From Hyphomonadaceae bacterium (GTDB taxonomy: Bacteria > Pseudomonadota > Alphaproteobacteria > Caulobacterales > Hyphomonadaceae), in assembly GCA_022844475.1 (NCBI GenBank), contig JALHLR010000007.1:4451-68450 (forward strand): a stretch of 64,000 nt of DNA, read 5' to 3'. Each line of letters begins with the position of its first letter. The first letter of the stretch is position 1. The notes under the pieces are model-generated. The model was not told where the DNA came from. It saw nothing but the letters and a program-made list of their open reading frames with translations, and did not search any database. Made by a program: the position numbers and the translations under genes. This document shows positions 14,675 through 30,616 of this stretch, in pieces.

Positions 14675-15181
14675 ATGACCGACGCCGCAAATCCGGGATC
14701 CGATCAAGCCGCAACGCCCGCCGCCCCGCCCCCGGGACCGCCGATGATCCGCGTTCTGGCGCAGTACGTTAAGGACCTTTCATTCGAAAATCCGGGCCTG
14801 TTTGCCGGCCAGAATGCCGGCTCCGCGCCAGAGATCGAGCTCGGCATCGACGTTCGGGTCGAGCCGGGGCCGCCGGCGGAAAAGATTTTTGCTGTCGAGC
14901 TGAAACTCTCGGCCCGTGCGAAGCGGCAGGACACCGTCGTTTTCATCGTCGAGCTCGTCTATGCCGGCGTCGTCCAGCTGCAGGACGCCAACCCCCAGGA
15001 CGCGGAGCCGATGCTGCTGATCGAATGCCCGCGCCTGCTTTTCCCGTTCGCCCGCAGGATCATTGCGGACATCACACGAGAAGGCGGCCACCCGCCGCTG
15101 ATGATCGACCCCATCGATTTCGTCGGCCTGTACCGCCAGCAGCAGCAGCAACGCGCCGCAGCCGCTGCGCAGCCGGCCTGA
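14675..15181 (+). CDS. secB: protein-export chaperone SecB
   Basis: Cytoplasmic tetrameric chaperone that holds precursors for SecA. The 168-aa protein has a Pro/Ala-rich N-terminus, the VKDLSFENPG motif and the LLIECPRLLFPFARRII helix typical of SecB. I start at MTDAANPG; the frame is open upstream but lacks support there. The stop codon directly abuts the stop of the convergent dehydrogenase gene. Confidence 0.97.
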   Translation: MTDAANPGSDQAATPAAPPPGPPMIRVLAQYVKDLSFENPGLFAGQNAGSAPEIELGIDVRVEPGPPAEKIFAVELKLSARAKRQDTVVFIVELVYAGVVQLQDANPQDAEPMLLIECPRLLFPFARRIIADITREGGHPPLMIDPIDFVGLYRQQQQQRAAAAAQPA

Positions 15182-16219
15182 TCAGCAGGTCAGCACCATC
15201 TTCATCGCGCCATCGCGGCGATCGTTGAACAGCGCGTAGGCATGCGCGCCACCGGACAATGGCATGCGGTGCGAGATGAACTGCTCCGGCTTCAGCCGGC
15301 CGTTTCTCACCATCGGCACAAGCTCGGGCCAGTGTTTCACCACCGAGCAGAGGCTGGTGCGGAAGGTGAGCCCCCTGTTGAAGGCGAGCGCCATTGGGAA
15401 CGGGAATTGTTTTGTCTGATTGACGCCGATGGTGGAGACCGTCCCCTGCTTGCCGGCTAACGCCAGCGCAAGCTTCAACGTGGCGTCAGCGCCAACGGCT
15501 TCGACCACGCTGTCTGCGAGAAGGCCCTGCGTGAGTTCCTTGAGCGCGGCGCGTTCATCGCCCGGCGGCAGCGCAACCGCCCCGAGGCGTTCGGCCATCG
15601 CGCGGCGTTCGGCCACAAGGTCAACCGCGAAGACGCGCGAGGCGCCCAGCACAAAGGCGATCTCCACCGCCATCAGCCCGATCGGCCCCAGGCCGACGAC
15701 GGCGACAGTACCGCCGGGACGAATGTCTGCGTTGAGGGCGCCCAGATAGGCGGTTGGCAGGTTGTCCGTGAGCATCAGCGCCTGCTCATGGCTGAGCCCG
15801 TCCGGGATGATCGCAGCATTCTGGTCGGCATGCGGCACCATCACCGCTTCTGCCTGACAGCCGGGCAGCGCGTGGCTCAGGCCATAGCATCCGGTCGCGT
15901 TGTTGGTGCAGCGCACCGCATCCCCTGCCCGGCAGGCCGCGCATCTCCCGCATCCAACGGCGGCGGAGATCATTACCTCATCCCCGACCTTCAGCGTCTC
16001 GACGCTGGCGCCGATCTCGACGATTTCTCCGACTGCTTCGTGTCCGATACAGAAGCCGACATCATCGCTGAAACCGTGGCCCTGATAGATGTGCAGGTCG
16101 CTGCCGCAGATGCCGCAAGCCCTCACGCGCACGAGTGCTGCGTGCGGATTCGTCACCTTCGCGTCGGGTATGGTCTCGAAGCGGATATCCTTGGGTGCGT
16201 GATACGTCAGGGCCTTCAT
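15182..16219 (-). CDS. zinc-dependent alcohol dehydrogenase family protein
   Basis: A 345-aa medium-chain dehydrogenase. CGICGSDLH and GHEAVGE hold the catalytic-zinc ligands. CGRCAACRAG plus a following Cys form the structural zinc site, and VGLGPIGLMAVE is the NAD(P)-binding loop. The substrate is unclear; it resembles threonine/sorbitol-dehydrogenase-like members. GGAGGT lies before the chosen ATG (MKALTYH). Confidence 0.93.
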   Translation of the reverse strand: MKALTYHAPKDIRFETIPDAKVTNPHAALVRVRACGICGSDLHIYQGHGFSDDVGFCIGHEAVGEIVEIGASVETLKVGDEVMISAAVGCGRCAACRAGDAVRCTNNATGCYGLSHALPGCQAEAVMVPHADQNAAIIPDGLSHEQALMLTDNLPTAYLGALNADIRPGGTVAVVGLGPIGLMAVEIAFVLGASRVFAVDLVAERRAMAERLGAVALPPGDERAALKELTQGLLADSVVEAVGADATLKLALALAGKQGTVSTIGVNQTKQFPFPMALAFNRGLTFRTSLCSVVKHWPELVPMVRNGRLKPEQFISHRMPLSGGAHAYALFNDRRDGAMKMVLTC

Positions 16220-16285
16220 GCGCCACCTCCGGTCAGAAGCGCACTTAAGCCTGCGGAACGGCAAACAGCCAGAGCAGCTGCGTGA

Positions 16286-16993
16286 TCAGGAGTACGCCTT
16301 CCACACCGCATTTTCGCCGAGCGCCCCCACGAACGCCGCATGGGCGGCTGCTTCCTCAGGGTGGACGCGGGAAGGCAGCGGTGCGGCGCGTGGCAGACGG
16401 GGGGCGTAGATGACGTGGGCGGCGCGGCCGCTGCCTGCCCCGGAATTGGCGAACTCGAACTTGCGCTCGCGTCCGCCGCGCAGCTCAAGATAGGCCATCG
16501 CCAGAAGCTGCGCATCCAGCAATGCCCCGTGCAGGACACGGTCCTTGATGGAGATGTCGAAACGCTTGCACACGGCATCGAGCGAGGCTGGCGAGCCGGG
16601 GCGATGTTCGCGCGCCAGCACCAGGGTGTCGATGAAGCGCTCCTTCGCCAGCGTGGGACGGCCAAGGCGGGCAAGTTCCGCGTTCAGAAAACCGCGGTCG
16701 AATTCAGCGTTGTGTGCGACGATCTGGGAGTCGCCGAAGAAATCCATCAGCCTGTCGACCACCTGGTCGAACGAAGGCTTGCCGCGCAGCGTGTCGTTCG
16801 TGATGCCGGTGATGCGCACCGTCGCTTCTGACACCGGGCGGCCCGGGTTGATGTACATCTGGAATTCGCGGCCCGTGGGCAGGTAGTTGAACAGCTCGAT
16901 GCAGCCAACCTCGACAATCCGGTCGCACTGCGCCGGATCGATGTGATCGGGGTTGAGGCCCGTGGTTTCCGTGTCGAAGACGATTTCGCGCAT
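16286..16993 (-). CDS. dnaQ: DNA polymerase III epsilon subunit (proofreading exonuclease)
   Basis: 3'-5' exonuclease of the replicative polymerase, 235 aa. It shows Exo I FDTETTGL, Exo II HNAEFDRGFL and the Exo III HGALLDAQLLA region of the DEDDh type. The C-terminal tail is rich in Arg and Ala and would contact the alpha subunit. It is last in the leftward operon starting beside the origin; its ATG overlaps the coaE stop (TGATG). Confidence 0.97.
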   Translation of the reverse strand: MREIVFDTETTGLNPDHIDPAQCDRIVEVGCIELFNYLPTGREFQMYINPGRPVSEATVRITGITNDTLRGKPSFDQVVDRLMDFFGDSQIVAHNAEFDRGFLNAELARLGRPTLAKERFIDTLVLAREHRPGSPASLDAVCKRFDISIKDRVLHGALLDAQLLAMAYLELRGGRERKFEFANSGAGSGRAAHVIYAPRLPRAAPLPSRVHPEEAAAHAAFVGALGENAVWKAYS

Positions 16994-17613
16994 CAGCCTG
17001 TCTTGTCTTGTCCGCCTGCCGCCCTCGCCCGCAACTCCGCCAGGATTTCGTCGACCCGCTGTTCGGCGTGGGCGAAACCCCGGCTCGTATCGATGACGAA
17101 GTCGGCGCGGCCCCGCTTCACCGAATCGGGAACCTGCCGCGCAAGTATCGCCTCGAACTCGGCCTCGGTCATCTGGCCGCGCGCCAGCACCCGGGCCTTC
17201 TGCACATCCGGCGGCGCGCTGACCACAAGAATTGCATCCGCGCGCTTCTCGCCGCCGGTCTCGAACAGGAGCGGGATGTCCAGCACAACAATAGCGTGGC
17301 CATCGGCCGCCGCCTTTTCAAGGAAAGCGCGCTGCAATCCGCCGACAATCGGGTGTACGATCGCCTCCAGCCGCTTCATCGCGGCGGAATCGTCGATGAC
17401 GCGCTGGCGCAGCTTCGCGCGATCGATGCCGCCCAGATTGCCGGTAACGCCAGGAAACTCCGCCTCGATCGGCGCGACGGCCTCCCCTCCCGGCGCATAG
17501 ACAGCGTGGACAGCGGCATCGGCATCGTAGACAGGCACGCCGCGCGCCGCGAACATGGCCGCGGTTGCGGACTTGCCCATCCCGATTGAGCCCGTGAGCG
17601 CAAGTTTGATCAT
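16993..17613 (-). CDS. coaE: dephospho-CoA kinase
   Basis: Last step of CoA synthesis. The 206-aa P-loop kinase begins [16 protein letters not shown] (Walker A), with the DADAAVH segment and the DIPLLFE motif of the family. The start chosen overlaps the aroE stop codon (ATGA). Confidence 0.96.
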
Positions 17614-18440
17614 GCGCGCGCCGCGACCGCTGCCCGGCACGCCTCAAGCGCGCTGGCCTGATCCGGCGATAGCGAGAACCAGAGCTGAAACGCCGCAGCC
17701 GCCTGGCCGACCAGCATGGTGAGACCGTCATGCGCGGCCCAGCCGGCGCCTGCGGCTGCCTGCAGCGCCGGGGCCGCCGCCTTGCCATAGGAAAGATCGA
17801 GGAACGGCCGCCCCTGGCCCCGCGCAAGCTGCGGCAGGCTGGCTCCGGCGTGGCCAAGGCTTGCTGCGTTCACGATGATATCAGCCGAAGCGGAGAGCGC
17901 CTCGACGTCGGAGAGTTCGGCGGTGACAGCATGGGGCGCCAGTTCATTCGCAAGCGCTGCCGCATTCACCGGCGAGCGGTTCGCAATCGTGAGGTGGGCG
18001 CCGGCGCGATTGAGGGCAACCACCACCGCACGCGCCGCGCCGCCTGCGCCGATCAGCAGCACGCGAAGATTTCGCAACTCCTTGCCAGCGACGGCGTGCA
18101 TCGCCATCTCGAAGCCTGCCACATCTGTGTTGTGTGCAGTCCATGCCTCGCCATTGCGAACCAGCGTGTTGGCTGCGCCGACGATGCGCGCCTCGGGCGA
18201 AGAATTCGCGCTCGCTTCAAGAGCAGCGATCTTGTGCGGCAGCGTTACGTTGAGACCTGAATAGGCGCGCGCCATGTCGTGGATGTCGGCTGCGGCATTC
18301 TCCGATCTCAGGTGCACGCGCTCATAGTGTGCATCGAGCCCGGCTTCGCGCATCCAGGCATTGTGGATCAGCGGCGAGAGCGAGTGGGCGACCGGGTCGC
18401 CGACGACTGCGTAGCGCGCGGGCTCGGGCGAATTCTTCAT
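17610..18440 (-). CDS. aroE: shikimate dehydrogenase
   Basis: NADPH-dependent reduction of 3-dehydroshikimate. The 276-aa protein has the substrate motif SLSPLIHN, the catalytic Lys in NVTLPHK and the nucleotide loop GAGGAARAV. Both ends overlap neighbours (ATGA), consistent with one polycistronic mRNA running away from the origin. Confidence 0.96.
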
Positions 18441-19060
18441 TGGGGGAGCGAGCCACGATCGCGCAGCCACTGCATGAGCGGCAGAAGCGGCATGCCGAGA
18501 ATGGAAAAGTAGTCGCCGTCGATGCGGTCGAAGAGCTGCGCGCCGAGCCCTTCAAGCTGGTAGCAGCCGACGCTTTCAAACGCGGCGTCGCCGATCGCGT
18601 CGAGATAGGCTTGCAGAAAGTCCTCGGAGAAACTGCGCACGCGCAGCCGGGGCTGAGCAAGATGACGCCATACCGGCACGCCATCGACGCAGGCGACGAT
18701 GGCGCCCTGGAGGATGTGCGTCTTGCCCCGCAGGCGGCGGAGGATCTCGGCGGCGTCCTCGCGTGTCGCCACCTTGTCGAGCCCCTGCCCGTCGAGATCG
18801 AGCATCTGGTCACAGCCGAGCACCACGCCGGGATGCGAGATCGACACCTTCAGCGCCTTGGTTTCAGCCAGTAAATCCGCCTGCTTCGCGACGCTGGCGC
18901 CCTCGGCCCGAAGCGCGTCTTTCAGCGCCTCCTCGTCAACGCCCGAGCCAATCTGCTCGAACTGCAGCCCTGCCCCGCGCAGAACCGCTGCACGCGCCCT
19001 GCTTTTTGATGCGAGGATCAGGCGATGCGCCGGATCCGTCTGCGTCGAGTTTGAGCTCAC
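18437..19060 (-). CDS. Maf/YceF family nucleoside triphosphate pyrophosphatase
   Basis: A 207-aa protein of the Maf family, which hydrolyses non-canonical or modified nucleotides. The N-terminal LILASKSRARAAVL and the later GVVLGCDQML and SVGCYQLEG blocks are conserved. It is co-translated with the upstream DUF299 gene (ATGA overlap) and with aroE. Confidence 0.94.
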   Translation of the reverse strand: MSSNSTQTDPAHRLILASKSRARAAVLRGAGLQFEQIGSGVDEEALKDALRAEGASVAKQADLLAETKALKVSISHPGVVLGCDQMLDLDGQGLDKVATREDAAEILRRLRGKTHILQGAIVACVDGVPVWRHLAQPRLRVRSFSEDFLQAYLDAIGDAAFESVGCYQLEGLGAQLFDRIDGDYFSILGMPLLPLMQWLRDRGSLPQ

Positions 19061-19875
19061 CGGTTGTGTTCCTGGATTATGTTCAGGATCGCCGCGGCGG
19101 TCTCCTCAACCGAGCGCCGGCTGACATCGATGGTGGGCCATTTCATCCGCGCAAAGAGGCGATTTGCCTCGGTGATCTCCTGCTGGACGGTTTCCTCGTC
19201 CGCATAAGAGGTATCGGGCTGCTCGTTCAGGGACAGCAGGCGATGGCGTCGGATCTGCACCAGCCGGTCAGGCGAAATCTTCAACCCCACGACGAGCGGT
19301 GCGTTTGGACCGGTGAGAATCTCGGGAACCTCGACGCCGGGAACCAGTGGAACGTTGGCTGCCTTCACGCCGCGATTGCCGAGGTAGACGCAGGTCGGCG
19401 TCTTGGACGTGCGCGAAACGCCGACAAGCACGACGTCCGCCTCGCGCAGGCGGTCGGTGTGCTGGCCGTCATCATGCTGGAGCGCGAAGTTGATCGTTTC
19501 CATGCGGGCGAAGTATTCTGCGTCCAGGTGATACTGGCCGGCGACCTTGTGCGCCGAGGCGAGACCAAGATAGCGCGACAGCATGTTCACGGCGGGATCG
19601 ATGACAGCCAGCGTCGCCGAGCCGAGTTCCCTGCACCGCTCTTCCAGCCGCGCGCGCAACTCCTGGTCGGTGATGGTGTAGAGGACGACGCCCGGCGCGT
19701 TCTCGATCTCCTTGAGCACGCGCTCCAGCTGCTTCGGGCTGCGGACGAGATAGTAGTTGTGTTCCAGCGGCGCGACGTTGTCGAACTGGGCGCAGGCGGC
19801 GCGCATCACCGCATTGAGCGTTTCGCCCGTCGAATCCGAGACCAGGTGCACGTTGAAATACGTCTCGTAGGTCAT
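19057..19875 (-). CDS. pyruvate-phosphate-dikinase/PEP-synthase regulatory protein (DUF299)
   Basis: Bifunctional serine/threonine kinase and phosphorylase that switches PPDK or PEP synthase on and off. The 272-aa protein has the signature VGVSRTSKTPT P-loop near residue 150 and the N-terminal HLVSDSTGET motif. This is the first gene to the left of the proposed origin, the same position as its counterpart in Caulobacter crescentus. It heads the operon that ends with dnaQ. Confidence 0.94.
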   Translation of the reverse strand: MTYETYFNVHLVSDSTGETLNAVMRAACAQFDNVAPLEHNYYLVRSPKQLERVLKEIENAPGVVLYTITDQELRARLEERCRELGSATLAVIDPAVNMLSRYLGLASAHKVAGQYHLDAEYFARMETINFALQHDDGQHTDRLREADVVLVGVSRTSKTPTCVYLGNRGVKAANVPLVPGVEVPEILTGPNAPLVVGLKISPDRLVQIRRHRLLSLNEQPDTSYADEETVQQEITEANRLFARMKWPTIDVSRRSVEETAAAILNIIQEHNR

Positions 19876-19905
19876 CCGCTCCCCGGCATCCCCGCCCTGC
19901 CCCGA

Positions 19906-19914
19906 TGTGGACGT
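19906..19914 (-). promoter_or_regulatory. weak DnaA box
   Basis: ACGTCCACA on the minus strand keeps the TCCACA core of the DnaA box but differs at its 5' end. TCCCCA at 19918-19923, four bases away, resembles the weak origin boxes described in Caulobacter. Confidence 0.4.
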
Positions 19915-19941
19915 TCATCCCCAATACCGCTGGGAGCGGTT

Positions 19942-19950
19942 TGTGGACAA
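19942..19950 (-). promoter_or_regulatory. DnaA box
   Basis: TTGTCCACA on the minus strand differs from the consensus TTATCCACA at one base. It is the best DnaA box in the gap. Confidence 0.7.
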
Positions 19951-19961
19951 GCACCGGGATC

Positions 19962-20236
19962 GATTCGGCGCACGAACAAGCCACACGCTTGTCCTCAGGT
20001 GGAGAGACTGGAGAAGACTCTTCGATTCGGCGCCCATGAGTCCGGCCCGGGGGACTCGACTCGCGTTAAGGTCCTGTTAACGAAGAGCTTAATGAAACGT
20101 AAACGCTCCATCTGGAGTCGGAACATTTGGTGATTCACGGTGGGCGGTTGTGTGAGTGGATTGGGGATCGGCATTCCCCTCGACTTATGAACCGACTAAT
20201 CACCACCAGAGTCCATATGATTCAGAATCTAGATTC
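19962..20236. promoter_or_regulatory. cluster of twelve GANTC (CcrM) methylation sites
   Basis: GANTC occurs at 19962, 20016, 20024, 20038, 20053, 20058, 20115, 20132, 20209, 20219, 20225 and 20232 (first base given). Base composition alone would give only one or two in this length. In Caulobacterales CcrM methylates this motif late in the cell cycle, so the origin's methylation state would report replication. Confidence 0.85.
20066..20080. promoter_or_regulatory. full CtrA-binding site in the origin
   Basis: TTAAGGTCCTGTTAA is an exact TTAA-N7-TTAA match to the CtrA box. A further TTAA half-site follows at 20089-20092 with 8-base spacing. CtrA bound here would block initiation in swarmer-type cells and could also affect hemE transcription. 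Confidence 0.75.
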
Positions 20237-20263
20237 TCTTCTCTCTTGTCCGCCGGGTGATGT

Positions 20264-21295
20264 GTGAACGGGAAGCCCCTGCTCCGAGTGTTGAACGGTG
20301 AACGCATCGATCCCGTTCCTGTATGGATGATGCGTCAGGCTGGACGTCACCTTCCCGAATACCGGGAAGTGAGAGCGCGTGCGCGTGACTTCCTCGATTT
20401 CTGCTATTCCCCTTCCCTCGCCGCCGAAGCGACCTTGCAGCCGGTCCGGCGCTACAAGATGGATGGGGCAATCCTGTTCGCAGACATACTGCTCGTGCTT
20501 GACGCCATGGGCCGGAATGTCCGCTTTCTCGAAGGGGAGGGCCCCCGGGTCGATCCGGCGACGAAGGCGAAGGATCTTGCGGGCGTTCCGATGGAAAAGC
20601 TGCTCGCCAAGCTCGCCCCCGTTGGCGAGACCGTGGAGCGGGTGAAGGCGGCGCTTGATCCTGGCGTTACGCTGATCGGCTTTGCCGGCTCGCCGTGGAC
20701 GGTCGGTGTCTACGCCATTGAAGGGCGAGGCGGTACGGACAAGGCGGATTCGCGCAAGTTCGGCTATGAGCATCCCGAAGAGCTGGACGGCATGCTCGAC
20801 CAGCTGGTCGAGGCCAGCGCCCATTATCTGAAAATGCAGGCGGATGCGGGCGCGGATGCCCTCATGCTGTTCGAAAGCTGGGCCGAGGGCCTCGCGGAAG
20901 ACGCTTTCGACCGCTGGGTGATCGGACCGACGGCGAAGCTCGTAAAGCGCCTGCGCGCACTTGGGGTGACCCAGCCGATCCTCGGCTTTCCGCGCGGCGC
21001 CGGCATGCTGGTGCTGGATTATGCGGAGCGGACGGGCGTGAACGCAGTAGGTCTCGACACAGCCATCCCGCTGAAGCGGATCAATGCCATGCTGCCCAGG
21101 GGCATGGCCGTGCAGGGCAATCTTGATCCGATGCAGCTGGTTGCAGGCGGGCCGGGGCTCGAGGCGCGCGTCCACGACATCATCGATGGGCTCAAGGGCC
21201 GGCCGCATATTTTCAATCTGGGTCATGGTGTCACGCCGGAAACGCCGATTCCTCACGTAGAACGCGTGCTTCAGGCCCTGCGGAGCCATGTGTGA
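20264..21295 (+). CDS. hemE: uroporphyrinogen III decarboxylase
   Basis: Converts uroporphyrinogen III to coproporphyrinogen III in heme synthesis. The 343-aa protein has WMMRQAGRHLPEYRE near the N-terminus and GFAGSPWTV in the middle, both family signatures. The GTG start is forced: an in-frame stop lies six bases upstream. There is no good Shine-Dalgarno. It is the first gene right of the origin and overlaps hemH by four bases (GTGA). Confidence 0.97.
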   Translation: MNGKPLLRVLNGERIDPVPVWMMRQAGRHLPEYREVRARARDFLDFCYSPSLAAEATLQPVRRYKMDGAILFADILLVLDAMGRNVRFLEGEGPRVDPATKAKDLAGVPMEKLLAKLAPVGETVERVKAALDPGVTLIGFAGSPWTVGVYAIEGRGGTDKADSRKFGYEHPEELDGMLDQLVEASAHYLKMQADAGADALMLFESWAEGLAEDAFDRWVIGPTAKLVKRLRALGVTQPILGFPRGAGMLVLDYAERTGVNAVGLDTAIPLKRINAMLPRGMAVQGNLDPMQLVAGGPGLEARVHDIIDGLKGRPHIFNLGHGVTPETPIPHVERVLQALRSHV

Positions 21296-22341
21296 AGCCC
21301 GAGAAACTCGCCGTCGTCCTTTTCAATCTGGGCGGACCTGACGGCCCCGACGACGTCCAGCCCTTCCTGAAGAATCTCTTCAGCGATCCGGCCATCATTC
21401 GCGCGCCGACGCCCATTCGCTGGCTCATCGCGCGGCTGATCTCGAAGACGCGCGCGGCAAGCGCACGCGAGAATTACGGTCTTATGGGTGGCGGCTCTCC
21501 CCTTCTCCCCGAAACGCGGAAGCAGGCCGCGGCGCTTGACGCCGAACTGGCGAAGCGCGGCCACACCGCCAAGAGCTTCATCGCCATGCGCTACTGGAAG
21601 CCCTACGCCGCTGATGTTGTACGTGAGGTCAAAGCCTGGGGCGCAGACCGGGTGGTCCTGCTGCCGCTCTACCCGCAGTTTTCGTCGACCACGACGGCCT
21701 CCTCGCTCAAGAGCTGGGCAGAGGCCAAAGGTCCGGCAGGCGTTACGGTCTGCTGCTATCCCGACGGGGACAAATTCATCTCAGCCCACGCCCGCGCCCT
21801 GATCGGCGCATGGGAGGCCGCCGGCAAGCCGGGGAACATCCGTTGCCTGCTGTCGGCGCACGGCCTCCCCGAGACCGTTGTGCAGGCCGGCGACCCCTAT
21901 CAGTGGCAGGTCGAACTCACGGCCTCGAAGATCAAGCCCCTTTTGCCGCCCGAATGGGAGGTTGAGGTCTGCTACCAGTCGCGCGTCGGTCCGCTGAAAT
22001 GGATCGGCCCGGCGACCGACGAGTCGATCAGAAAGGCAGCGAGCGACGGCAAGAACATCCTGCTGTCACCCGTCGCCTTCGTGTCCGAACACATCGAGAC
22101 GCTGGTCGAACTCGACATCGAGTATCGCCACCTTGCCGACGAGCTTGGCGTGAAGACTTATCTGCGCGCCCCCGCCCTCAGCGTCGATCCGGGCTTCATC
22201 GAGACCCTGGCCGATCTCGTCGAGGATGCCGTCGGAGATGATGGGCCTGACAAGGTTCGCTCCTCCTGCGGCGGGCGCCTCTGCCCTGCCGACCGGAAGG
22301 ACTGTCCGAACCGCCGGGCGTTGGCTACCAAGGCCGCCTGA
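21292..22341 (+). CDS. hemH: ferrochelatase, probably iron-sulfur type
   Basis: Inserts ferrous iron into protoporphyrin IX. The 349-aa protein shows MRYWKPY, PLYPQFSSTTTAS, SAHGLPE (catalytic His) and SEHIETLVELDIE (Glu). The C-terminus has CGGRLCPADRKDC, three Cys in a spacing that recalls the [2Fe-2S] ligands of Caulobacter ferrochelatase; an internal CCYPDG could give the fourth. Start is GTG within the hemE stop region. Confidence 0.96.
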   Translation: MKPEKLAVVLFNLGGPDGPDDVQPFLKNLFSDPAIIRAPTPIRWLIARLISKTRAASARENYGLMGGGSPLLPETRKQAAALDAELAKRGHTAKSFIAMRYWKPYAADVVREVKAWGADRVVLLPLYPQFSSTTTASSLKSWAEAKGPAGVTVCCYPDGDKFISAHARALIGAWEAAGKPGNIRCLLSAHGLPETVVQAGDPYQWQVELTASKIKPLLPPEWEVEVCYQSRVGPLKWIGPATDESIRKAASDGKNILLSPVAFVSEHIETLVELDIEYRHLADELGVKTYLRAPALSVDPGFIETLADLVEDAVGDDGPDKVRSSCGGRLCPADRKDCPNRRALATKAA

Positions 22342-22359
22342 ACGATCGGGGCAGTGCAG

Positions 22360-22788
22360 ATGTTCGAATGGTTTCGCGCGATCCACATCATCGGGGTCAT
22401 CGCCTGGATGGCCGGGCTGATGATCTATCCGCGCCTGCTGGTCTACCGGCTGGAAGCACACGGTGATGCCCGCTTCGAGGCGGCGATGGACAAGGCCGCC
22501 GGGTCGACGCGAAAGATAATCCTCAACCCGACCATGGTCATCGTCTGGCTGATGGGTCTCGCCATGATCGGCGACAACTGGGAATTCTATGTCACGCAGG
22601 CCTGGTTCTGGGGCAAGATCTTGCTCGTGGTCGGTCTTTCGGGCTTCCACGGCTACCTGCTTGGCCTGGGCAGGAAGGTCGCCGCCGGCGAGCGTCCGAT
22701 CGAGCCCCGCAAGCTTCGGATGATGAACGAAATTCCCATGATCGTCGCCATCCTGGCCGTGATCCTGGTCGTGGTGCAGCCCTTCTAG
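22360..22788 (+). CDS. hemJ: protoporphyrinogen IX oxidase HemJ (UPF0093)
   Basis: A 142-aa membrane protein with four hydrophobic helices. The conserved RAIHIIGVIAWMAGL helix holds the His required in HemJ, and YPRLLVYR follows. HemJ oxidises protoporphyrinogen to protoporphyrin, the step just before HemH, so the three heme genes form one functional operon. I use the ATG; a GTG two codons earlier is possible. Confidence 0.92.
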   Translation: MFEWFRAIHIIGVIAWMAGLMIYPRLLVYRLEAHGDARFEAAMDKAAGSTRKIILNPTMVIVWLMGLAMIGDNWEFYVTQAWFWGKILLVVGLSGFHGYLLGLGRKVAAGERPIEPRKLRMMNEIPMIVAILAVILVVVQPF

Positions 22789-22813
22789 CAGCGGCGCGAA
22801 CACCCATATTCGC

Positions 22814-22842
22814 TTGACCCGCCAAGCATTTGGCGGTCTAAC
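22814..22842 (+). promoter_or_regulatory. rho promoter with palindrome in the spacer
   Basis: TTGACC (22814-22819) and TCTAAC (22837-22842) are separated by exactly 17 bases. The spacer contains the inverted repeat CCGCCAA-gcat-TTGGCGG (22819-22836), so a repressor bound there would cover the promoter. The rho mRNA would have a leader of about 105 bases. The hairpin is not followed by a T-run and so is not an obvious terminator for hemJ. Confidence 0.55.
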
Positions 22843-22952
22843 CGCGATCGTCGGCCGTCCGGTCGATACCCTTTCCCTTCTCAAAATTTGTCCGTCAGAC
22901 CCGCGCCTCGCGCCATCTCCCGGGCAAACCACAGCCGAAATGTACCTACCAA

Positions 22953-24254
22953 ATGTCTGACGACGTCATCGAAGCGCACGAGCCGGAACACGAGCGCGTG
23001 CTGCTCAACGACCTGAAGAAGAAAACACCGGCCGAACTGCTGGCCATGGCGGAAGAGCTCGAGGTCGAAGGCGCCTCGCTCCTGTCCAAGCAGGAACTGA
23101 TGTTCGGCGTTCTCAAGGAACTGGCCGAACGCGATGTCGAGATCATCGGCGTCGGCGTGGTCGAAGTCCTGCCCGACGGGTTCGGCTTCCTGCGGTCGCC
23201 GCAGTCGAACTACCTGGCCGGTCCCGACGATATCTACGTCCAGCCGCAGATGATCCGCAAAATGGGCCTGAGGACCGGCGACACGGTCGAGGGCACGATC
23301 CGGGGCCCCCGCGATGGGGAGCGCTATTTTGCACTTGTCCGCGTCGCGACCGTCAACTTCGAGGATCCCGAGCGCGCCCGCCACAAGGTGCCGTTCGACA
23401 ACCTCACTCCGCTCTATCCCGACGAGCGCCTTCACATGGAGCCCAGGGATCCGACCAAAAAGGATCGTTCTGGCCGCGTGATCGACATCGTCTCGCCGAT
23501 CGGCAAGGGCCAGCGCGCACTGATTGTTGCTCCGCCCAGAACCGGCAAGACCGTCCTGCTGCAGAATATCGCGCAGTCGGTCGCCGAAAATCACCCCGAG
23601 TGCTACCTGATCGTGCTCCTCATCGACGAACGTCCCGAGGAAGTCACCGACATGCAGCGTTCGGTGAAAGGCGAAGTCATCTCCTCCACCTTCGACGAGC
23701 CTGCGACCCGCCACGTCGCGGTCGCCGAGATGGTCATCGAGAAAGCCAAACGCCTCGCCGAACATGGCCGCGATGTCGTGATCCTGCTCGACTCGATCAC
23801 GCGCCTCGGCCGCGCCTACAACACGGTCGTCCCCTCCTCGGGCAAGGTGCTCACCGGCGGTGTTGACGCCAACGCCCTGCAGAAACCGAAGCGCTTCTTC
23901 GGCGCAGCGCGTAACCTGGAAGAAGGCGGCTCGCTCACCATCATCGCGACGGCGCTGATCGAAACCGGCTCGCGCATGGACGAAGTCATCTTCGAGGAAT
24001 TCAAGGGTACGGGTAACTCCGAGATCATCCTCGACCGCAAGGTTTCCGACAAACGCATCTTCCCCGCGATCGACATCCTCAAGTCGGGCACGCGGAAAGA
24101 AGAACTGCTCACCGACGCCAAGGAGCTGCAGAAGATCTACGTCCTCCGCCGCATCCTCAACCCGATGGGCGCGCAGGATGCGATCGAGTTCCTGCTCGAC
24201 AAGATCAAGCAGACAAAGACGAACGGCGAATTCTTCGCTGCGATGAACAACTAG
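22953..24254 (+). CDS. rho: transcription termination factor Rho
   Basis: Hexameric RNA helicase for factor-dependent termination. The 433-aa protein has an N-terminal helical cap, the RNA-binding OB fold ([12 protein letters not shown]), Walker [11 protein letters not shown], the [11 protein letters not shown] segment, Walker [13 protein letters not shown] and the Q/R loops [13 protein letters not shown]. There is no large insertion. It is followed by a strong intrinsic terminator. Confidence 0.98.
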
Positions 24255-24278
24255 ACGCTCACGCATTCACGAAAAGCA

Positions 24279-24317
24279 AAACCCCGCCTCCGGACCGGAG
24301 GCGGGGTTTCTTTTTTT
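24279..24317. terminator. bidirectional intrinsic terminator after rho
   Basis: A 15-bp perfect stem (AAACCCCGCCTCCGG with its complement) is followed on the plus strand by TTTCTTTTTTT and on the minus strand by TTTTGCTTTT. It separates rho from the small convergent gene at 24339. Confidence 0.93.
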
Positions 24318-24338
24318 CATCCGCCCTGTCGGCCCGCG

Positions 24339-24551
24339 CTACGCCAGCGCCGGGGCCATGCCTCGCCGCACGATCCGCGGCCGCTCCATTGTCGTCACCG
24401 TCGCTTCAGTCTTGCGGGAGTTGTCCCGCGGTTCGGGCGCCGCCACGCCCAGCCTGCTTCTCAGATCCTCGATCGACCATGCTCGCCTCATTGTCTCGTT
24501 CCTCTCGTCCGCTTCCGGCGCCCACTCCGGTTCACGCACTTGCTGGTTCAT
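24339..24551 (-). CDS. small protein of unknown function, convergent with rho
   Basis: A 70-aa, charged, soluble frame beginning MNQQVREPEW with an RRAWSIEDLRSRLG helix in the middle. AAGGAG lies six bases before the ATG, a strong ribosome binding site, which is the main reason to accept it. It ends just before the shared bidirectional terminator. I recognise no family. It could still be chance in GC-rich DNA. Confidence 0.5.
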   Translation of the reverse strand: MNQQVREPEWAPEADERNETMRRAWSIEDLRSRLGVAAPEPRDNSRKTEATVTTMERPRIVRRGMAPALA

Positions 24552-24718
24552 TCCCACTCCTTACGCTCGCCCGACACGAGAAGAATGCGCGACGAGCCTT
24601 ACCCAACTCCGAACGCGAAGACGTTCTGGAAAAAATCTCGACGACGTGATTTCGATGAGCAAAGCCTTGCAGCGCAAGGCCGATGTCGAATTGTCTGCGA
24701 GCGTGCTAGGGATCGTGC

Positions 24719-25324
24719 ATGCCGATCACACGTCACTTCGTTTCAGAGATCTATCGCGAGAGCATCGGCGACGCCGACCTCAACGCCGACCTGCTCGATG
24801 CATCGAAGATGCTCGCGAAGGAAGACAAGGCCGGCCGCGCCTGGTGCCGCGAGCACGGCTATCAGGGCTACACGTCCTACGCCTCGCTCAACGATCTTCC
24901 GCAGCGCGCGACATGCTTCGACCAGCTTGTCCGTGTACTGAAGACACATACGGAAACGTTCGCCTCTCACCTGCAGATGGACCTGCGTGGCAAACGGCTG
25001 AAGCTCGACAGCCTGTGGGTCAACGTGCTCGAGCCTGGCGGCTCTCACACCGGCCACATCCACCCACACTGCGTGATGTCGGGGACTTACTATGTGCGTG
25101 TGCCCGATGGCGCATCGTCGCTGAAGTTCGAGGACCCGCGGCTGGCGATGATGATGGCCGCCCCCGCCCCGCGCGAGGATGCCGACGATGAGCACCGCCG
25201 CTTCGTCTACGTCGCGCCCAGGGCCGGCGAGGTCCTGCTCTGGGAAAGCTGGCTGCGCCACGAGGTGACCGTCAACCGCGCGGCCACGCCCAGGATCAGC
25301 ATCAGCTTCAACTACCGGGTCTGA
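24719..25324 (+). CDS. TIGR02466-type putative 2OG-Fe(II) oxygenase
   Basis: A 201-aa protein of the double-stranded beta-helix type. GSHTGHIHPHCVMSGTYYV supplies candidate metal-binding His residues, and WLRHEVTVNR near the C-terminus supplies the distal His, followed by the conserved PRISISFNYR end. This matches the TIGR02466 group. The substrate is unknown. It stands alone between the rho terminator and the first parS site. Confidence 0.85.
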   Translation: MPITRHFVSEIYRESIGDADLNADLLDASKMLAKEDKAGRAWCREHGYQGYTSYASLNDLPQRATCFDQLVRVLKTHTETFASHLQMDLRGKRLKLDSLWVNVLEPGGSHTGHIHPHCVMSGTYYVRVPDGASSLKFEDPRLAMMMAAPAPREDADDEHRRFVYVAPRAGEVLLWESWLRHEVTVNRAATPRISISFNYRV

Positions 25325-25356: not shown

Positions 25357-25372
25357 CGTTTCACGTGAAACG
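25357..25372. promoter_or_regulatory. parS site 1 (intergenic)
   Basis: CGTTTCACGTGAAACG, a perfect palindrome with the parS core GTTTCACGTGAAAC bound by ParB. It is the parS site nearest the origin, about 5.2 kb away. Just beyond it (25379-25409) a short direct repeat of CCCCCGGTAGCGCC occurs twice. Confidence 0.9.
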
Positions 25373-25438
25373 TTGCGCCCCCCCCGGTAGCGCCCCCCGG
25401 TAGCGCCCGCCGGACCGGGCCAGGGATGGCCCTACTGG

Positions 25439-26125
25439 TCAGCTGAGGCCTCTGGCGAAGAAGTCCAGGGTCCGCTGGTTGGCCTTCTGCGCGTCATCCC
25501 GGTGGAAATGCTTGCCTCCTTCACGGGCGAAGGCGTGGTCGCGGCCCGGATACCAGTAGAGCTGGAAGGTTGGCGCGGTCAGCCCGGCCTTCATCCTGGC
25601 CTGACTGTCCTTCGAGACGAATCCGTCCTCCTCCGCGATGTGAAGCAGCGCCGGTTTGCGGGCCCTGCCGGCCTCACCAAGGTAGTTGTCGATCCCGACG
25701 CCGTAATAGCTCACGCTTGCGTCTGCATCGGTCCTCGTACTGGTCAGGAAGGCCAGGAGGCCGCCGAGACAGTAGCCGACAGCCCCGACCTTCGAATGCC
25801 CCTGGGCGCGCGTCCGGGCGATTGTGGAGGCGATATCCTCGACGCCTTTGTCGACGTTGAAGGTCTTGAAGTAGGAGAAGGCCTTCTCCCATTCCGCGTC
25901 GGTCTGGTCGGTGATGTCGATGCCCGGTTCGATACGCCAGAACAGGTCCGGGCATACCGCCGTATAGCCTTCCTCCGCGAGGTCGTCGGCGATGTCCCGC
26001 ATCACCTTGTTCACCCCGAAGATCTCCTGGATGACCACGATGGCCGGCCCGCCTCTGGTTTTACCGTCAGCGACATACGCGCCGAACGATCCGTCTTTTC
26101 CCTGGATGGTAATCCTGCGGCCCAT
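25439..26125 (-). CDS. dienelactone hydrolase family protein
   Basis: A 228-aa alpha/beta hydrolase. The triad is seen as Cys in GYCLGG, Asp in AEEDGFVS and His in GRDHAFAR, as in carboxymethylenebutenolidase. QEIFGVN near residue 35 is also typical. Gene neighbours give no pathway. I start at MGRRITIQG, preceded by GGGAGAG; a longer in-frame start would overlap mnmE on the other strand. Confidence 0.92.
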   Translation of the reverse strand: MGRRITIQGKDGSFGAYVADGKTRGGPAIVVIQEIFGVNKVMRDIADDLAEEGYTAVCPDLFWRIEPGIDITDQTDAEWEKAFSYFKTFNVDKGVEDIASTIARTRAQGHSKVGAVGYCLGGLLAFLTSTRTDADASVSYYGVGIDNYLGEAGRARKPALLHIAEEDGFVSKDSQARMKAGLTAPTFQLYWYPGRDHAFAREGGKHFHRDDAQKANQRTLDFFARGLS

Positions 26126-26219
26126 GCCCGGCTCTCCCGTTCTGGATTGTTGGCTGTCCGGGTTGTAGGGCTCGGTATGGCCACAACAAGCCGCTTTGGC
26201 CCGGTATGGCCGGAGCAAC

Positions 26220-27596
26220 ATGACTGTCAGACGCGGCCCTACCGATACGATCATCGCCCTCGCGTCCGGCGCCGGCCGAGCCGGCATTGCGGTCATACGC
26301 GCATCAGGAGCGGCCTCGTCGGCCCTACTGCGCCAGCTCAGCGCCCATGAGCCGGGTGTTTCACGTGAAACACCGATGCCCGCGCCGCGCCGCGCCGCGA
26401 TCCGCGCTCTCCATGACTCCGATGGCGCATTCCTCGATGAGGCGCTGGTTCTCTGGATGCCGGGGCCGAATTCCTACACCGGCGAAGACACGGCCGAATT
26501 CCATGTCCATGGCGGCGCGGCCGTCATCGCGGCCGTGCTGGACGCCGCGCTCCGGACCGGCCTTTGTCGGGTGGCCGAGCCTGGGGAGTTCACCCGGAGG
26601 GCCTTTGATGCAGGGCAGATCGACCTCACCCAGGCAGAGGCGATCGGCGACCTGATCGACGCCGAGACGGAGGGTCAGCGACGCCAGGCCGGGCGCCTTT
26701 ATCAGGGCGAGGCGGCGCGAACCTTCGAGGGATGGCGGGGGCTTCTGATGTCCGCGATGGCGGCGCTCGAAGCCTCCATCGACTTTCCAGACGAGGCTGA
26801 CATTCCCGGCGAAGTCGACCTCTCCGCGCTCGAGCCGATCGAGGCGCTGGCCGCCGAACTCGAGGCGGCCCTTGGTGATGCGGGCCGGCTTAACGCTGTG
26901 CGGGAGGGCTTCCGGATTGCCATCCTGGGGCCGCCGAACGCCGGGAAGTCATCGCTGATGAACCGGCTTGCCCGGCGGGAGGCCGCCATTGTGTCCCCGA
27001 TTGCGGGAACGACGCGCGACGTGGTGGAGGTTCGCCTGGTTCTGGCCGGCTTTCCGGTCTGGGTTGCCGACACCGCCGGACTGCGGGAGGCGACAGACGC
27101 GATCGAGGCCGAGGGGGTGCGCCGGGCGCTGGCGCGCGCCGAGGAAGCCGACCTCCGGATCTGGGTCAGCGATGCGTCGGCGGATGTTTCACGTGAAACA
27201 TTGGCCTCTCACCGGCCGGGCGACATCGAGGTCCTGAACAAGGCCGACCTGGTCGGGACGGCCCCGGCGCGGGCGGGCGGGGAAGATGTCTTCGTCGTAT
27301 CGGCAAGGACCGGGGCCGGGTTCGAAGCGCTGGAGCGGCGTCTGGTCCATATTGTCCGCGAGCGTCTGGAGAGGGATGAGGCGCCTCTGGTGACCCGGGC
27401 CAGGCATCGCGAGCTTGTCGAGGAGGCGCTTCGCGACGTCGAAAGGGCGCTTGCAGGGGCACAGTCAGGGATCGGCGCCGAGCTGGTATCCGAAGACCTG
27501 CGCCTTGCGGCCAGGGCCCTGGGGCGCATCACAGGGACAATTGATGCAGAAGACCTGCTGGAGCGGATCTTCAGCCAGTTCTGCGTCGGCAAGTAG
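26220..27596 (+). CDS. mnmE: tRNA modification GTPase MnmE (TrmE)
   Basis: With MnmG it adds the cmnm5 group to U34 of tRNAs. The 458-aa protein has the N-terminal folate-binding domain, an inserted G domain (GPPNAGKSS, GTTRDVV, DTAGLRE, NKAD) and the C-terminal catalytic motif CVGK. Two parS palindromes lie inside the gene; both are read as VSRET (residues 47-51 and 323-327). CGGAG precedes the ATG. Confidence 0.97.
   Translation: MTVRRGPTDTIIALASGAGRAGIAVIRASGAASSALLRQLSAHEPGVSRETPMPAPRRAAIRALHDSDGAFLDEALVLWMPGPNSYTGEDTAEFHVHGGAAVIAAVLDAALRTGLCRVAEPGEFTRRAFDAGQIDLTQAEAIGDLIDAETEGQRRQAGRLYQGEAARTFEGWRGLLMSAMAALEASIDFPDEADIPGEVDLSALEPIEALAAELEAALGDAGRLNAVREGFRIAILGPPNAGKSSLMNRLARREAAIVSPIAGTTRDVVEVRLVLAGFPVWVADTAGLREATDAIEAEGVRRALARAEEADLRIWVSDASADVSRETLASHRPGDIEVLNKADLVGTAPARAGGEDVFVVSARTGAGFEALERRLVHIVRERLERDEAPLVTRARHRELVEEALRDVERALAGAQSGIGAELVSEDLRLAARALGRITGTIDAEDLLERIFSQFCVGK
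26357..26372. promoter_or_regulatory. parS site 2 (inside mnmE)
   Basis: TGTTTCACGTGAAACA, the full 16-base parS palindrome, encoding VSRET in the N-terminal domain of MnmE. Confidence 0.93.
27185..27200. promoter_or_regulatory. parS site 3 (inside mnmE)
   Basis: TGTTTCACGTGAAACA, the full palindrome, read again as VSRET in the G-domain region of MnmE. Confidence 0.93.
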
Positions 27597-27601
27597 GCCG
27601 A

Positions 27602-27617
27602 TGTTTCACGTGAAACA
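27602..27617. promoter_or_regulatory. parS site 4 (intergenic)
   Basis: TGTTTCACGTGAAACA, the full palindrome, five bases after the mnmE stop codon. Confidence 0.93.
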
Positions 27618-27883
27618 CTGGCCGACGGGGGCTGCCCTTACATAGCGTGGGCGGCGCGCCTGGAGGTTTGGCTGCCGCAAAGCGGCCGGTATCGTCCCTG
27701 GCCCAGCGCCGATATGGCTTCCTGGGCTGTGGCACCCCTGAAATGAGGACATCGCTTGGCCACAAAGCGGGTTTTTCAGCTAATTCATTGTATTGGTGGA
27801 CTAAATTGTCTTTTCACCCCGCAAGGGGACCGATTCACGGAAACTGCCGAGTTTCCGCCCGTGACGCGACTTTCCAGTGGCAA

Positions 27884-27899
27884 CGTTTCACGTGAAACA
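27884..27899. promoter_or_regulatory. parS site 5 (intergenic)
   Basis: CGTTTCACGTGAAACA, the parS core with one altered flank, 68 bases before mnmG. Confidence 0.9.
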
Positions 27900-27967
27900 T
27901 CCGAGGCGCCTCGACGTCGGTGGCGCGGTCCCTTAAATGACCGCCTCAATCCACAGGCAGCCGCCGC

Positions 27968-29866
27968 ATGACCGCGCACTCTGAAACATTCGATGTGATC
28001 GTCATCGGCGGCGGGCATGCCGGCGCCGAAGCGGCTGCCGCTGCTGCCCGCTTCGGGGCCAGGACGGCGCTGGTCACCCATAAGCTTTCGACGATTGGCG
28101 AGATGTCGTGCAATCCGGCCATCGGCGGATTGGGCAAGGGACACCTGGTCCGGGAAGTCGATGCGCTGGATGGCGTAATGGGCCGCGCGGCTGATCGCGG
28201 CGGCATCCAGTTCCGCATGCTCAACCGTTCCAAGGGGCCGGCTGTGCGTGGGCCGCGAACACAGGCCGATCGCAAACTCTATCGCGAAGCCGTCCAGTCG
28301 ATCCTGGGCGAATACGAAAACCTGACGCTGATCGAGGATGGGGTCGAAGACCTCGTCATCGAGCGTGGCCAGGTCGCAGGCGTCATCGGCCAGTCGGGCC
28401 GGTCGTGGCGGGCAGGCGCGGTCGTGGTGACGACGGGGACATTCCTCAAAGGCCTGATCCATATCGGCGAGAAGCGGATCCCCGCAGGCCGCGTCGGCGA
28501 GGCGCCGGCGATCGGATTGTCGGACCGGCTTTACGGGCTTGGCCTCCAGATGGGTCGGCTGAAGACCGGAACGCCTGCCCGGCTTCGCGCCTCGAGCATC
28601 AACTGGTCGGACCTCGAAATGCAGGCGGCCGATGCCGAGCCGATCCCCTTCTCATTCCTGAATGACCGTATCGACGTGCCGCAGATCGCCTGTGGCATCA
28701 CCTGGACGTCGGCGGACGTTCACGCCGTGATCGGCGACAATCTCCACAGGTCCGCCGTCTATTCGGGGGCCATCGCCGGGCGTGGCCCGCGCTATTGCCC
28801 CTCGATCGAGGACAAGGTGAAGCGGTTTGCCGATCGCGACAAACACCAGATCTTCCTCGAGCCGGAAGGCCTGCCCGGCACCGAGTATGGCGACACCATC
28901 TATCCCAACGGGATTTCGACCTCTCTGCCCGAGGACGTGCAGGAGGCTTTCATCCGGAAGATCCATGGGCTCGCAGACGTCGAGATCCTCCGCTTCGGCT
29001 ATGCAATCGAATACGACTATGTCGACCCGCGCGAGCTTACGCCCGACCTCGCCGTGAAGCGCCTGCCCGGGCTTTACCTGGCGGGCCAGATCAATGGCAC
29101 GACAGGCTATGAAGAGGCTGCAGGACAAGGACTTGTGGCCGGTCTCAACGCGGCGCGCTTTGCGGGCGGGAACGACCCATACATCCTCGATCGGAGCCGC
29201 GCCTATATCGGCGTGATGATCGACGACCTCGTCACGCGGGGCGTCTCGGAGCCCTATCGCATGTTCACCTCGCGGGCCGAATACCGGCTGAGCCTGCGGG
29301 CCGACAATGCCGACCAGCGGCTGACGGAAGAGGGTGTCGGTGCAGGAGTTGTGGGCGCCCACAGGCGTGAAGCGTTTCACGTGAAACGTTCATCGATCGA
29401 CGCGGCGCGGGCCAGGCTCAACGCGCTGACGCTTACGCCGAACGAGGCGCGCGGCCACGGCATCATGATCAACCTCGATGGCAAGCGGCGCAATGCGCTG
29501 GAGATCCTGGCCTATGTCGGCGTCGACTTCACGCGGCTGCGCAGCGTGTGGCCGGAACTCTCCGATGTGACGCCGCAGGTGGCGGAGCAGATGGAGATCG
29601 AGGCGGCCTATGCAGGCTATCTCGACCGCCAGGAGGCGGACATCGTCGCCTTCCGGAAGGACGAAGACATGCGCCTGCCAGCCGATCTCGACTATCGCGC
29701 GATCGGCGGACTCTCGAACGAAGCGAAGGACAAGCTCTCGACCGTGCGGCCGGCAACTCTGGGCCAGGCGGCGCGGATCGAAGGCATGACGCCCGGGGCG
29801 ATTACTGCCGTGCTCGGGCATCTGAAGCGGACGGCCAGGAAGGTCGGGCGTGCCGCTCAGGGGTGA
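27968..29866 (+). CDS. mnmG: tRNA uridine-5-carboxymethylaminomethyl modification enzyme MnmG (GidA)
   Basis: FAD-dependent partner of MnmE. The 632-aa protein begins with the FAD-binding [12 protein letters not shown] motif, then [20 protein letters not shown] and [16 protein letters not shown], all MnmG signatures. A parS palindrome lies near residue 470 and is read in a different frame from those in mnmE, giving FHVKR. The C-terminal helical domain is complete. Confidence 0.97.
29373..29388. promoter_or_regulatory. parS site 6 (inside mnmG)
   Basis: CGTTTCACGTGAAACG, a perfect palindrome with the parS core; it encodes FHVKR in MnmG. Confidence 0.9.
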
Positions 29867-29950
29867 TGGGCTTGCGGCCGGCGATGGCGAGCAGTGCGCA
29901 AAGCGCCCATCCGTCGAACAACGCGCACGTGCTTACGGAAGGTTCGACTG

Positions 29951-30616
29951 ATGCCCTGGCCCACTCACGATGAAGATGGCTTCGGGCCTGAAGACGCAGC
30001 CGGGCTGACCGGTGTTTCACGTGAAACACTGGCCCGCGTCCGTTCCTATCTTGCCGTGCTGGACGTATGGCGCGAGCGAATCAATCTGATCGGGCCCGGA
30101 GAGGGGCGCCACCTGTGGCGGCGCCATGTGCTCGACAGCCTTCAGCTGCTCGACCAGATCGGGCCGGAGCACAGGAATATTGTTGATCTCGGCTCCGGGG
30201 CCGGATTTCCCGGACTGCTGATCGCAGCCGCCATGCTCGAGCGGCCAGGGGCATCGGTGACGCTCGTGGAGAAGAGCCCCCGGAAAACCGAATTCCTTGA
30301 AGCGGCTATTGCCCATGTGGGCCTGCCTGCCAGGGTTCTGACGACACGCATCGAGGACCCGCCGGCGTCACTTGTCAGGGATCGTTTCGATCTGCTCACG
30401 GCGCGGGCGCTGGCGCCGCTGCCGAAGCTTTTGGGGTATGGTTACGCATGGCTTAAACCTTCCGGTAAGGCCCTGCTGATGAAAGGTAGGGACACCGCCG
30501 CCGAATTGGCGGAGGCCCGCCTCTCCTGGACCTTCAAGGTCGCCGAGCGGCAGAGCCTCTCCAGTCCGGAAGGGCGCGTGCTGACGATTTCGTCGATTGA
30601 ACCCCGGAGGGCCTGA
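29951..30616 (+). CDS. rsmG: 16S rRNA (guanine-527-N7)-methyltransferase
   Basis: SAM-dependent methylation of G527 of 16S rRNA. The 221-aa protein has INLIG, the SAM loop DLGSGAGFPGLLIA and LTARALAPL. A parS site is embedded near the N-terminus as VSRET (residues 22-26). GGAAGG precedes the ATG. Its TGA overlaps the parA ATG by one base. Confidence 0.96.
   Translation: MPWPTHDEDGFGPEDAAGLTGVSRETLARVRSYLAVLDVWRERINLIGPGEGRHLWRRHVLDSLQLLDQIGPEHRNIVDLGSGAGFPGLLIAAAMLERPGASVTLVEKSPRKTEFLEAAIAHVGLPARVLTTRIEDPPASLVRDRFDLLTARALAPLPKLLGYGYAWLKPSGKALLMKGRDTAAELAEARLSWTFKVAERQSLSSPEGRVLTISSIEPRRA
30013..30028. promoter_or_regulatory. parS site 7 (inside rsmG)
   Basis: TGTTTCACGTGAAACA, the full palindrome; encodes VSRET. 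It is the last site before parAB, about 600 bases upstream of parA. Confidence 0.93.

Follow-up and report, generated by a model that had tools for sequence, protein, structure and literature searches.

The predicted replication origin of a Hyphomonadaceae bacterium carries twelve GANTC sites, the target of CcrM, within 275 bases, a cluster without equal in the sampled part of its genome. The sites are conserved in number and placement among close relatives, dense arrays recur in separate lineages, and a ccrM gene is present in the genome. The explanation we favour, with about even confidence, is that the array consists of CcrM sites maintained by selection and that the origin senses its own methylation state, which would delay its re-firing. 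Coordinates refer to the window, the whole 64 kb stretch of DNA that was analysed.

The GANTC array and the predicted origin

The intergenic region between ppsR and hemE (19876..20263) is predicted to be a chromosomal origin of the Caulobacter type, based on synteny, a CtrA box and nearby parS and parAB. We take this gap to be the location of the Caulobacter origin; it is conserved in 58 of the 60 genomes sampled from the order Caulobacterales. Left of ppsR lie maf, aroE and coaE, and right of hemE lie rho and then mnmE, mnmG, rsmG, parA and parB, all named by best family match, with maf and aroE under the curated cut-offs. The parS-like sites are found at 5-10 kb and parAB at 10-12 kb from the predicted origin. 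There are seven such sites at 25357-30028, scattered through 4.7 kb within and next to mnmE, mnmG and rsmG; four are exact copies of TGTTTCACGTGAAACA and three have one or two mismatches. The original prediction had already placed the cluster in the origin, and the gap, the CtrA box and parS/parAB back that assignment. The features are as follows.

19057..19875, minus strand: ppsR, pyruvate phosphate dikinase / PEP synthase regulator of the DUF299 type, left flank (NCBIfam NF003742, 330 bits, cut-off 225)
19876..20263, no strand: ppsR-hemE intergenic region, predicted origin by synteny, enclosing all 12 GANTC
19942..19950, minus strand: DnaA-box-like TTGTCCACA, one mismatch to TTATCCACA
19962..20042, no strand: left GANTC group (19962, 20016, 20024, 20038), kept in 5, 7, 7 and 9 of 9 core own-genus origins
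20053..20062, plus strand: tandem GANTC pair GACTCGACTC (20053, 20058), ending 3 bases ahead of the CtrA box
20066..20080, plus strand: CtrA box TTAA-N7-TTAA, exact match
20089..20103: second CtrA box, one mismatch
20115..20136, no strand: middle GANTC pair (20115, 20132), kept in 6 and 8 of 9 core own-genus origins
20162..20167, minus strand: W-box-like TCCCCA (TGGGGA on the plus strand), hexamer match
20208..20247, plus strand: predicted unwinding element, the least stable 40-mer of 19601-20700 in a nearest-neighbour profile, with GANTC at 20209, 20219, 20225 and 20232
20264..21295, plus strand: hemE, uroporphyrinogen decarboxylase, right flank (NCBIfam TIGR01464, 370 bits, cut-off 303); its GTG start is the choice of the ORF lister

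Candidate DnaA-type sites in the origin comprise one DnaA box with one mismatch, two exact W-box hexamers and several G-boxes with two mismatches. Of the W-box-like sequence at 20162-20167, TGGGGA is present in 8 and GGGGA in all 9 of the core own-genus origins. IHF sites were searched for with the pattern WATCAANNNNTTR. This pattern, which is loose and is not the Cori IHF sequence of PMC4285127, was absent from 19700-20500 when up to one mismatch was allowed. The GANTC at 20132 lies inside TGATTCACG (20131-20139), which has two mismatches to TGATCCACA, given as the Caulobacter DnaA G-box consensus in extracts of the same paper (PMC4285127). GC skew had no clear switch at the predicted origin inside the 64 kb window, and Rfam at gathering thresholds returned no match in 15000-25000. 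The sequence GATTCGGCGC stands at both 19962 and 20024, a possible direct repeat on the left side of the origin that includes a CcrM site.

The window contains 102 GANTC, of which 12 fall in 19962-20236; a thirteenth site near the array (19832) is within ppsR. The recount therefore agrees with the twelve sites originally reported. About one had been expected from base composition, and indeed 0.87 per 275 bases follows from the composition of the window and 1.05 from the local composition, though dinucleotide shuffles raise the expectation to about two (2.28, sd 1.36). None of 5,000 such shuffles reached 12, which rules out composition alone as the cause. The rest of the window has at most 3 GANTC in any 275 bases. 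For comparison the own genome was sampled over 462.8 kb, made up of twenty 20 kb stretches together with the window minus the origin, or about 15% of an assembly of 3.17 Mb with an estimated completeness of 78%. The sample holds 867 GANTC (1.87 per kb). As the shuffles gave no more than 8 sites and the sample no more than 5 per 275 bases, the array is much denser than chance would give and has no match in the sample; a comparable density elsewhere, which the original prediction had named as a reason to abandon it, did not appear there. Five GANTC in 275 bases were seen at three further places of the own-genome sample (L321 10740, L328 3788 and L070 13762). The sites at 20053 and 20058 are adjacent, as had been noted; the four sites said to lie within 18 bases (20219-20236) are in fact three, and four occupy 28 bases (20209-20236).

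Distribution of dense origins across lineages

The family set was built from 105 genomes, of which 103 yielded a ppsR match. Besides the window, 100 of 102 relatives were examined (G095 and G149 left out), and three loci with no hemE in the piece were dropped, giving 98 origins. The order set comprised 58 origins from 60 genomes, as two loci whose piece lacked hemE were dropped. For the class set 144 genomes were searched, 99 had ppsR, and 62 of the 68 loci examined showed the gap. The named set used 68 of 80 loci; five of these, taken as Hyphomonadaceae, were excluded from the outside-family set, and one of the five, L177, assigned by record title and identity only, is in neither set. Matching loci in named GTDB records place the family as Hyphomonadaceae, and each group was named after one such record: g1 is the own genus and includes 'Hyphomonadaceae bacterium UBA7672', g2 contains Hyphomonas johnsonii and is called the Hyphomonas group, g3 is Henriciella and g26 is the group of Hirschia maritima.

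GANTC density follows lineage: dense origins occur in some Hyphomonadaceae genera and, separately, in Microvirga/Enterovirga. In the own genus 9 of the 11 origins carry 9-14 sites and two deep members carry 2 and 3. The single g27 origin has 12 sites, the 40 origins of the Hyphomonas group 5-10 each (H. johnsonii itself 5), the 29 Henriciella origins 3-11, each of the three g26 origins 5, and the 14 origins of g25, g28, g29, g30 and g31 0-4. Outside the family 142 of 167 distinct origins have 0-4 sites, with a median of 6.1 per kb. Only 3 of the 167 have 20 or more per kb: Enterovirga with 8 sites and two Microvirga with 12 and 11; a further Microvirga stays at 18 per kb (7 sites). Within the family this threshold is attained by 9 of 11 own-genus, 24 of 40 Hyphomonas-group and 3 of 29 Henriciella origins. 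All 300 of their own shuffles were exceeded by 6 of 167 origins outside the family, and by 9 of 11, 32 of 40 and 6 of 29 origins in the three genera respectively. With 30.9 GANTC per kb the own origin is third of 265. Eleven origins of the Caulobacteraceae group contain 1-6 sites each in 523-595 bases, 36 in total, which supports the original statement that this origin goes beyond the few sites described for Caulobacter.

A PpsR tree of 108 rows was used to follow the trait. The rows, partly hand-picked, were every third g2 locus, every second g3 and other-order locus, the first 18 of the 62 class loci, and nine hand-picked named loci. In this set and at a cut of 18 per kb, the division into 'at least 18' and 'less' requires eight state changes, a count which does not separate gain from loss. 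The tree was made by a quick method and 35 of its 104 inner branches are open. The own genus with g27, the Hyphomonas group and Microvirga/Enterovirga fall apart as separate lineages. Sister genera have 0-5 GANTC despite near-universal CcrM, which means that the family can do without the array.

Conservation and placement of the sites

Among the 256 gapped tetramers of the form XYNZW, GANTC has the highest excess over shuffles both in nine own-genus origins (106 versus 24.4, 4.35-fold) and in the 98 origins of the family (646 versus 177.8, 3.63-fold), and the second-highest excess in the four Microvirga/Enterovirga origins. Within the own genus it is retained in 75% of pairs versus 32% for other tetramers, ranking second of 11 comparable patterns; GTNAA, which is part of the CtrA box, is retained better. 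Both GANTC of the tandem pair are aligned in 9 of 9 core own-genus origins, and GACTCGACTC recurs in 2 of the 3 g26 origins and in the sole g27 origin.

A selected CcrM target is expected to keep its core G, A, T and C fixed and to leave N free, and this pattern appears in the Hyphomonas group. In a hand-picked set of 17 of its 40 origins, one alignment block has GANTC in all 17 with N being T five times, C five, A four and G three; two more blocks show it in 16 of the 17, N taking three different bases in one and two in the other. This set and a Henriciella set of 16 were hand-picked; the N test was repeated on all 39 and 29 origins; a single Hyphomonas-group gap of 775 bases was excluded from the alignments and from the unwinding-element count, which covers 39 of the 40. 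Among the 27 non-redundant of the 39, 71% of GANTC is retained between pairs, and the identity of N in retained sites is 0.605 versus 0.891 for the other gapped tetramers pooled. Of 49 compared patterns only TTNTC (0.46) and GCNTG (0.60) match or undercut this N identity, and their retention (0.35 and 0.28) is at most half that of GANTC. Against the selection argument, N is no freer than elsewhere in the own genus (0.858 versus 0.870), nor clearly freer in Henriciella (0.801 versus 0.860). The weak or absent signal in the own genus may reflect origins that are too similar, or neighbouring bases that are bound by something else.

These data bear on whether GANTC is merely part of the motif of another protein, or a product of biased composition, with methylation being incidental. 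The mostly fixed N bases of the own genus would fit such an account, as would the general over-representation of intergenic GANTC in CcrM-bearing alphaproteobacteria described in extracts of PMC3973325. However, none of the shuffles reached 12, no other sampled 275 bases held more than 5, N is free in the Hyphomonas group, and the flanks vary among sites and genera, and we consider the account very improbable.

Besides the tandem pair next to the CtrA box, two placements stand out. In the own genus at least two GANTC lie in the least stable 40-mer, the likely unwinding element, of 11 of 11 origins, including those with only 2-3 sites in total; the number there is 2-4, and in the nine core origins it averages 3.33 versus 0.57 expected. 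The same loading is seen in g27, in 1 of 3 g26 origins and in 3 of 4 Microvirga/Enterovirga origins, and is rare in the class sample (2 of 62) and in other families of the order (5 of 45). In the Hyphomonas group 166 of 328 GANTC take the form GANTCACA/TGTGANTC; in background DNA from one of its genomes only 6 of 360 do. NCACA is one half of the DnaA box consensus, and the CcrM target thus appears to overlap this half in half of the sites. Neither placement could be accepted as a general arrangement: fusion to a DnaA half-box holds in the Hyphomonas group and fails in the own genus (just 4 of 111 GANTC), while loading of the unwinding element holds in the own genus and fails for Hyphomonas-group origins (2 of 39) and those of Henriciella (0 of 29). 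Since each is confined to some lineages no arrangement is common to all, and similar density was reached with different partners. A GANTC spacing of 6 is common to all three large genera (9, 9 and 17 times); the own genus also has spacings of 5 and 8, and otherwise spacings vary by genus. Some Henriciella-group origins (L016, L134 and L136) contain the triple GAATCYGACTCYGAATC with 6-base spacing.

CcrM, proposed mechanism and known systems

Lack of a ccrM gene would have spoken against the original prediction, but the own genome encodes a CcrM of 389 aa with a DPPY motif, identified by eye, and a C-terminal RAMA domain (PF18755, 77.3 bits, cut-off 35.2). RAMA-domain matches of the CcrM type are present in 103 of the 105 family genomes and in 4 of 4 Microvirga/Enterovirga. 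Two GANTC lie upstream of ccrM in the own genome (L103 2704 and 2733). In the Hyphomonas-group genome G112 seven GANTC begin within 118 bases (L336 10095-10216) directly upstream of ccrM (L336 8972-10054, minus strand), and for this genome, origin aside, it was the sole sampled 20 kb stretch in which more than 4 GANTC fell within 275 bases. SeqA (PF03925) was found in none of the 105 family genomes, and among 14 control genomes only E. coli was positive, so any protein reader of the mark would be new.

We infer that the sites are methylated in this organism with a timing set by its cell cycle, and that methylation affects DnaA, CtrA or melting. At firing, all twelve sites would be fully methylated. 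Passage of the fork would render them hemimethylated together, and they would stay that way up to the late stage of the cycle at which CcrM acts. Hemimethylated sites at the unwinding element and beside the CtrA box, as well as those within DnaA half-boxes of the Hyphomonas group, would hamper DnaA assembly or melting; weaker DnaA or CtrA assembly or melting would then delay re-firing, and competence would be regained upon full methylation. Extracts of PMC8116508 state that ccrM expression in Caulobacter is confined to the S to G2 transition and that new DNA remains hemimethylated till replication ends; with such timing, hemimethylation would persist during most of S phase. Extracts of PMC3973325 put the share of Caulobacter cells with hemimethylated GANTC close to the origin at about 80%. 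At ori2 of Agrobacterium a hypermethylated state is reported to cause over-initiation, and a hypomethylated one often delay (PMC11514494, in extract). Counting against the mechanism, DNA content is reported to be normal in C. crescentus after loss of ccrM (PMC3973325).

The array might instead serve transcription, with GcrA and sigma-70 on methylated GANTC driving hemE (or ppsR) from promoters located within the origin, so that methylation would adjust gene expression and affect replication only indirectly. Four GANTC do stand directly ahead of hemE, but the sites are scattered across 275 bases and not gathered at one promoter. GcrA is encoded in 99 of the 105 family genomes, with no match in the own genome, which is 78% complete, and in Caulobacter its preferred targets, which it activates, are reportedly promoters whose GANTC is fully or hemimethylated (PMC8116508). 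Its extended motif YGAKTCK, which may vary between species (PMC8725594, in extract), is not enriched, neither in the own origin (3 of 12 sites versus 209 of 866 in the background) nor in Hyphomonas-group origins (15 of 328 versus 75 of 360). This makes GcrA less likely as the main user, and we regard a transcriptional role as unlikely.

As to sequestration, a protein unrelated to SeqA could bind clustered hemimethylated GANTC and withhold the freshly copied origin, in the manner of SeqA with GATC. The comparably dense oriC of E. coli, with 11 GATC in 232 bases, lends itself to this comparison, as do the common close pairs with spacing 6 in all three large genera, SeqA requiring at least two hemimethylated sites (according to a title cited in PMC5145175). 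Yet spacings other than 6 differ by genus, and the search, which covered SeqA only, supplied no candidate protein; we judge sequestration to be quite unlikely. Returning to methylation-sensitive firing, a broader version can be put forward only tentatively: that CcrM-licensed origins arose several times in Alphaproteobacteria, in a UBA7672-like genus and its neighbours, in the Hyphomonas group and in Microvirga/Enterovirga, and came, without SeqA, to resemble E. coli oriC in how densely its Dam sites are packed and where they lie, by way of methylation-sensitive DnaA or melting or of an undiscovered reader of hemimethylated GANTC.

Extracts of the literature on CcrM and alphaproteobacterial origins credit C. 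crescentus and its close relatives with 'several' origin GANTC and describe repABC origins as GANTC-rich. These extracts contained no description of GANTC-dense chromosomal origins in Hyphomonadaceae or Microvirga, of conservation with a free N, or of placement of origin GANTC in unwinding elements or DnaA half-boxes. Methylation-based once-per-cycle firing was put forward for Caulobacter, where later evidence contradicted it; since Caulobacteraceae origins are poor in GANTC, Caulobacter may have been the wrong test organism. The comparative Cori study of Shaheen et al. 2009 may list the GANTC of Caulobacter relatives. Cultured species exist in both Hyphomonas and Microvirga, as the named strains Microvirga lupini, M. 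pudoricolor and Hyphomonas johnsonii show, and many origins of these genera carry 7-12 GANTC, which makes the question of methylation-dependent firing directly testable.

The model of 2008 for Cori likewise treats full methylation as the licence, firing requiring the fully methylated state (PMC2217572, in extract), but it was made for Caulobacter, where it was later contradicted, and is here applied to dense-array origins. Cori itself resembles the own origin in its ppsR-hemE locus, CtrA box, DnaA-box-like and W-box-like sites and a CcrM in the genome, and probably differs in having sparser GANTC, to judge by the 11 other origins of the Caulobacteraceae group. It also has five CtrA boxes according to PMC2217572, versus one exact and one with a mismatch here. 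Replicons of the repABC type and A. tumefaciens ori2 share GANTC-rich origins and promoters and an initiation that shifts with the level of CcrM (extracts of PMC6090056 and PMC11514494), but are RepC-dependent secondary replicons in which the effect is mainly through repABC/repE transcription, whereas the present case is a chromosomal origin of the DnaA type. There is also a likeness in layout to the Dam/SeqA system of E. coli oriC, with about one site per 20-25 bases (11 GATC in 232, 12 GANTC in 275), sites that are dense at the origin and rare elsewhere (462.8 kb sample), and sites in the unwinding region, as all three 13-mers of oriC start with GATC and the own origin has GANTC in its predicted unwinding element. 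GATC of oriC is also reported to overlap weak DnaA sites (PMC4285127). Here GANTC and CcrM take the place of GATC and Dam, and SeqA is absent. If the favoured reading is true, it would be a SeqA-free solution, in which a methyl-mark licence is made from different parts, and the origin may hold a built-in 'already copied' mark, as in E. coli, from other components.
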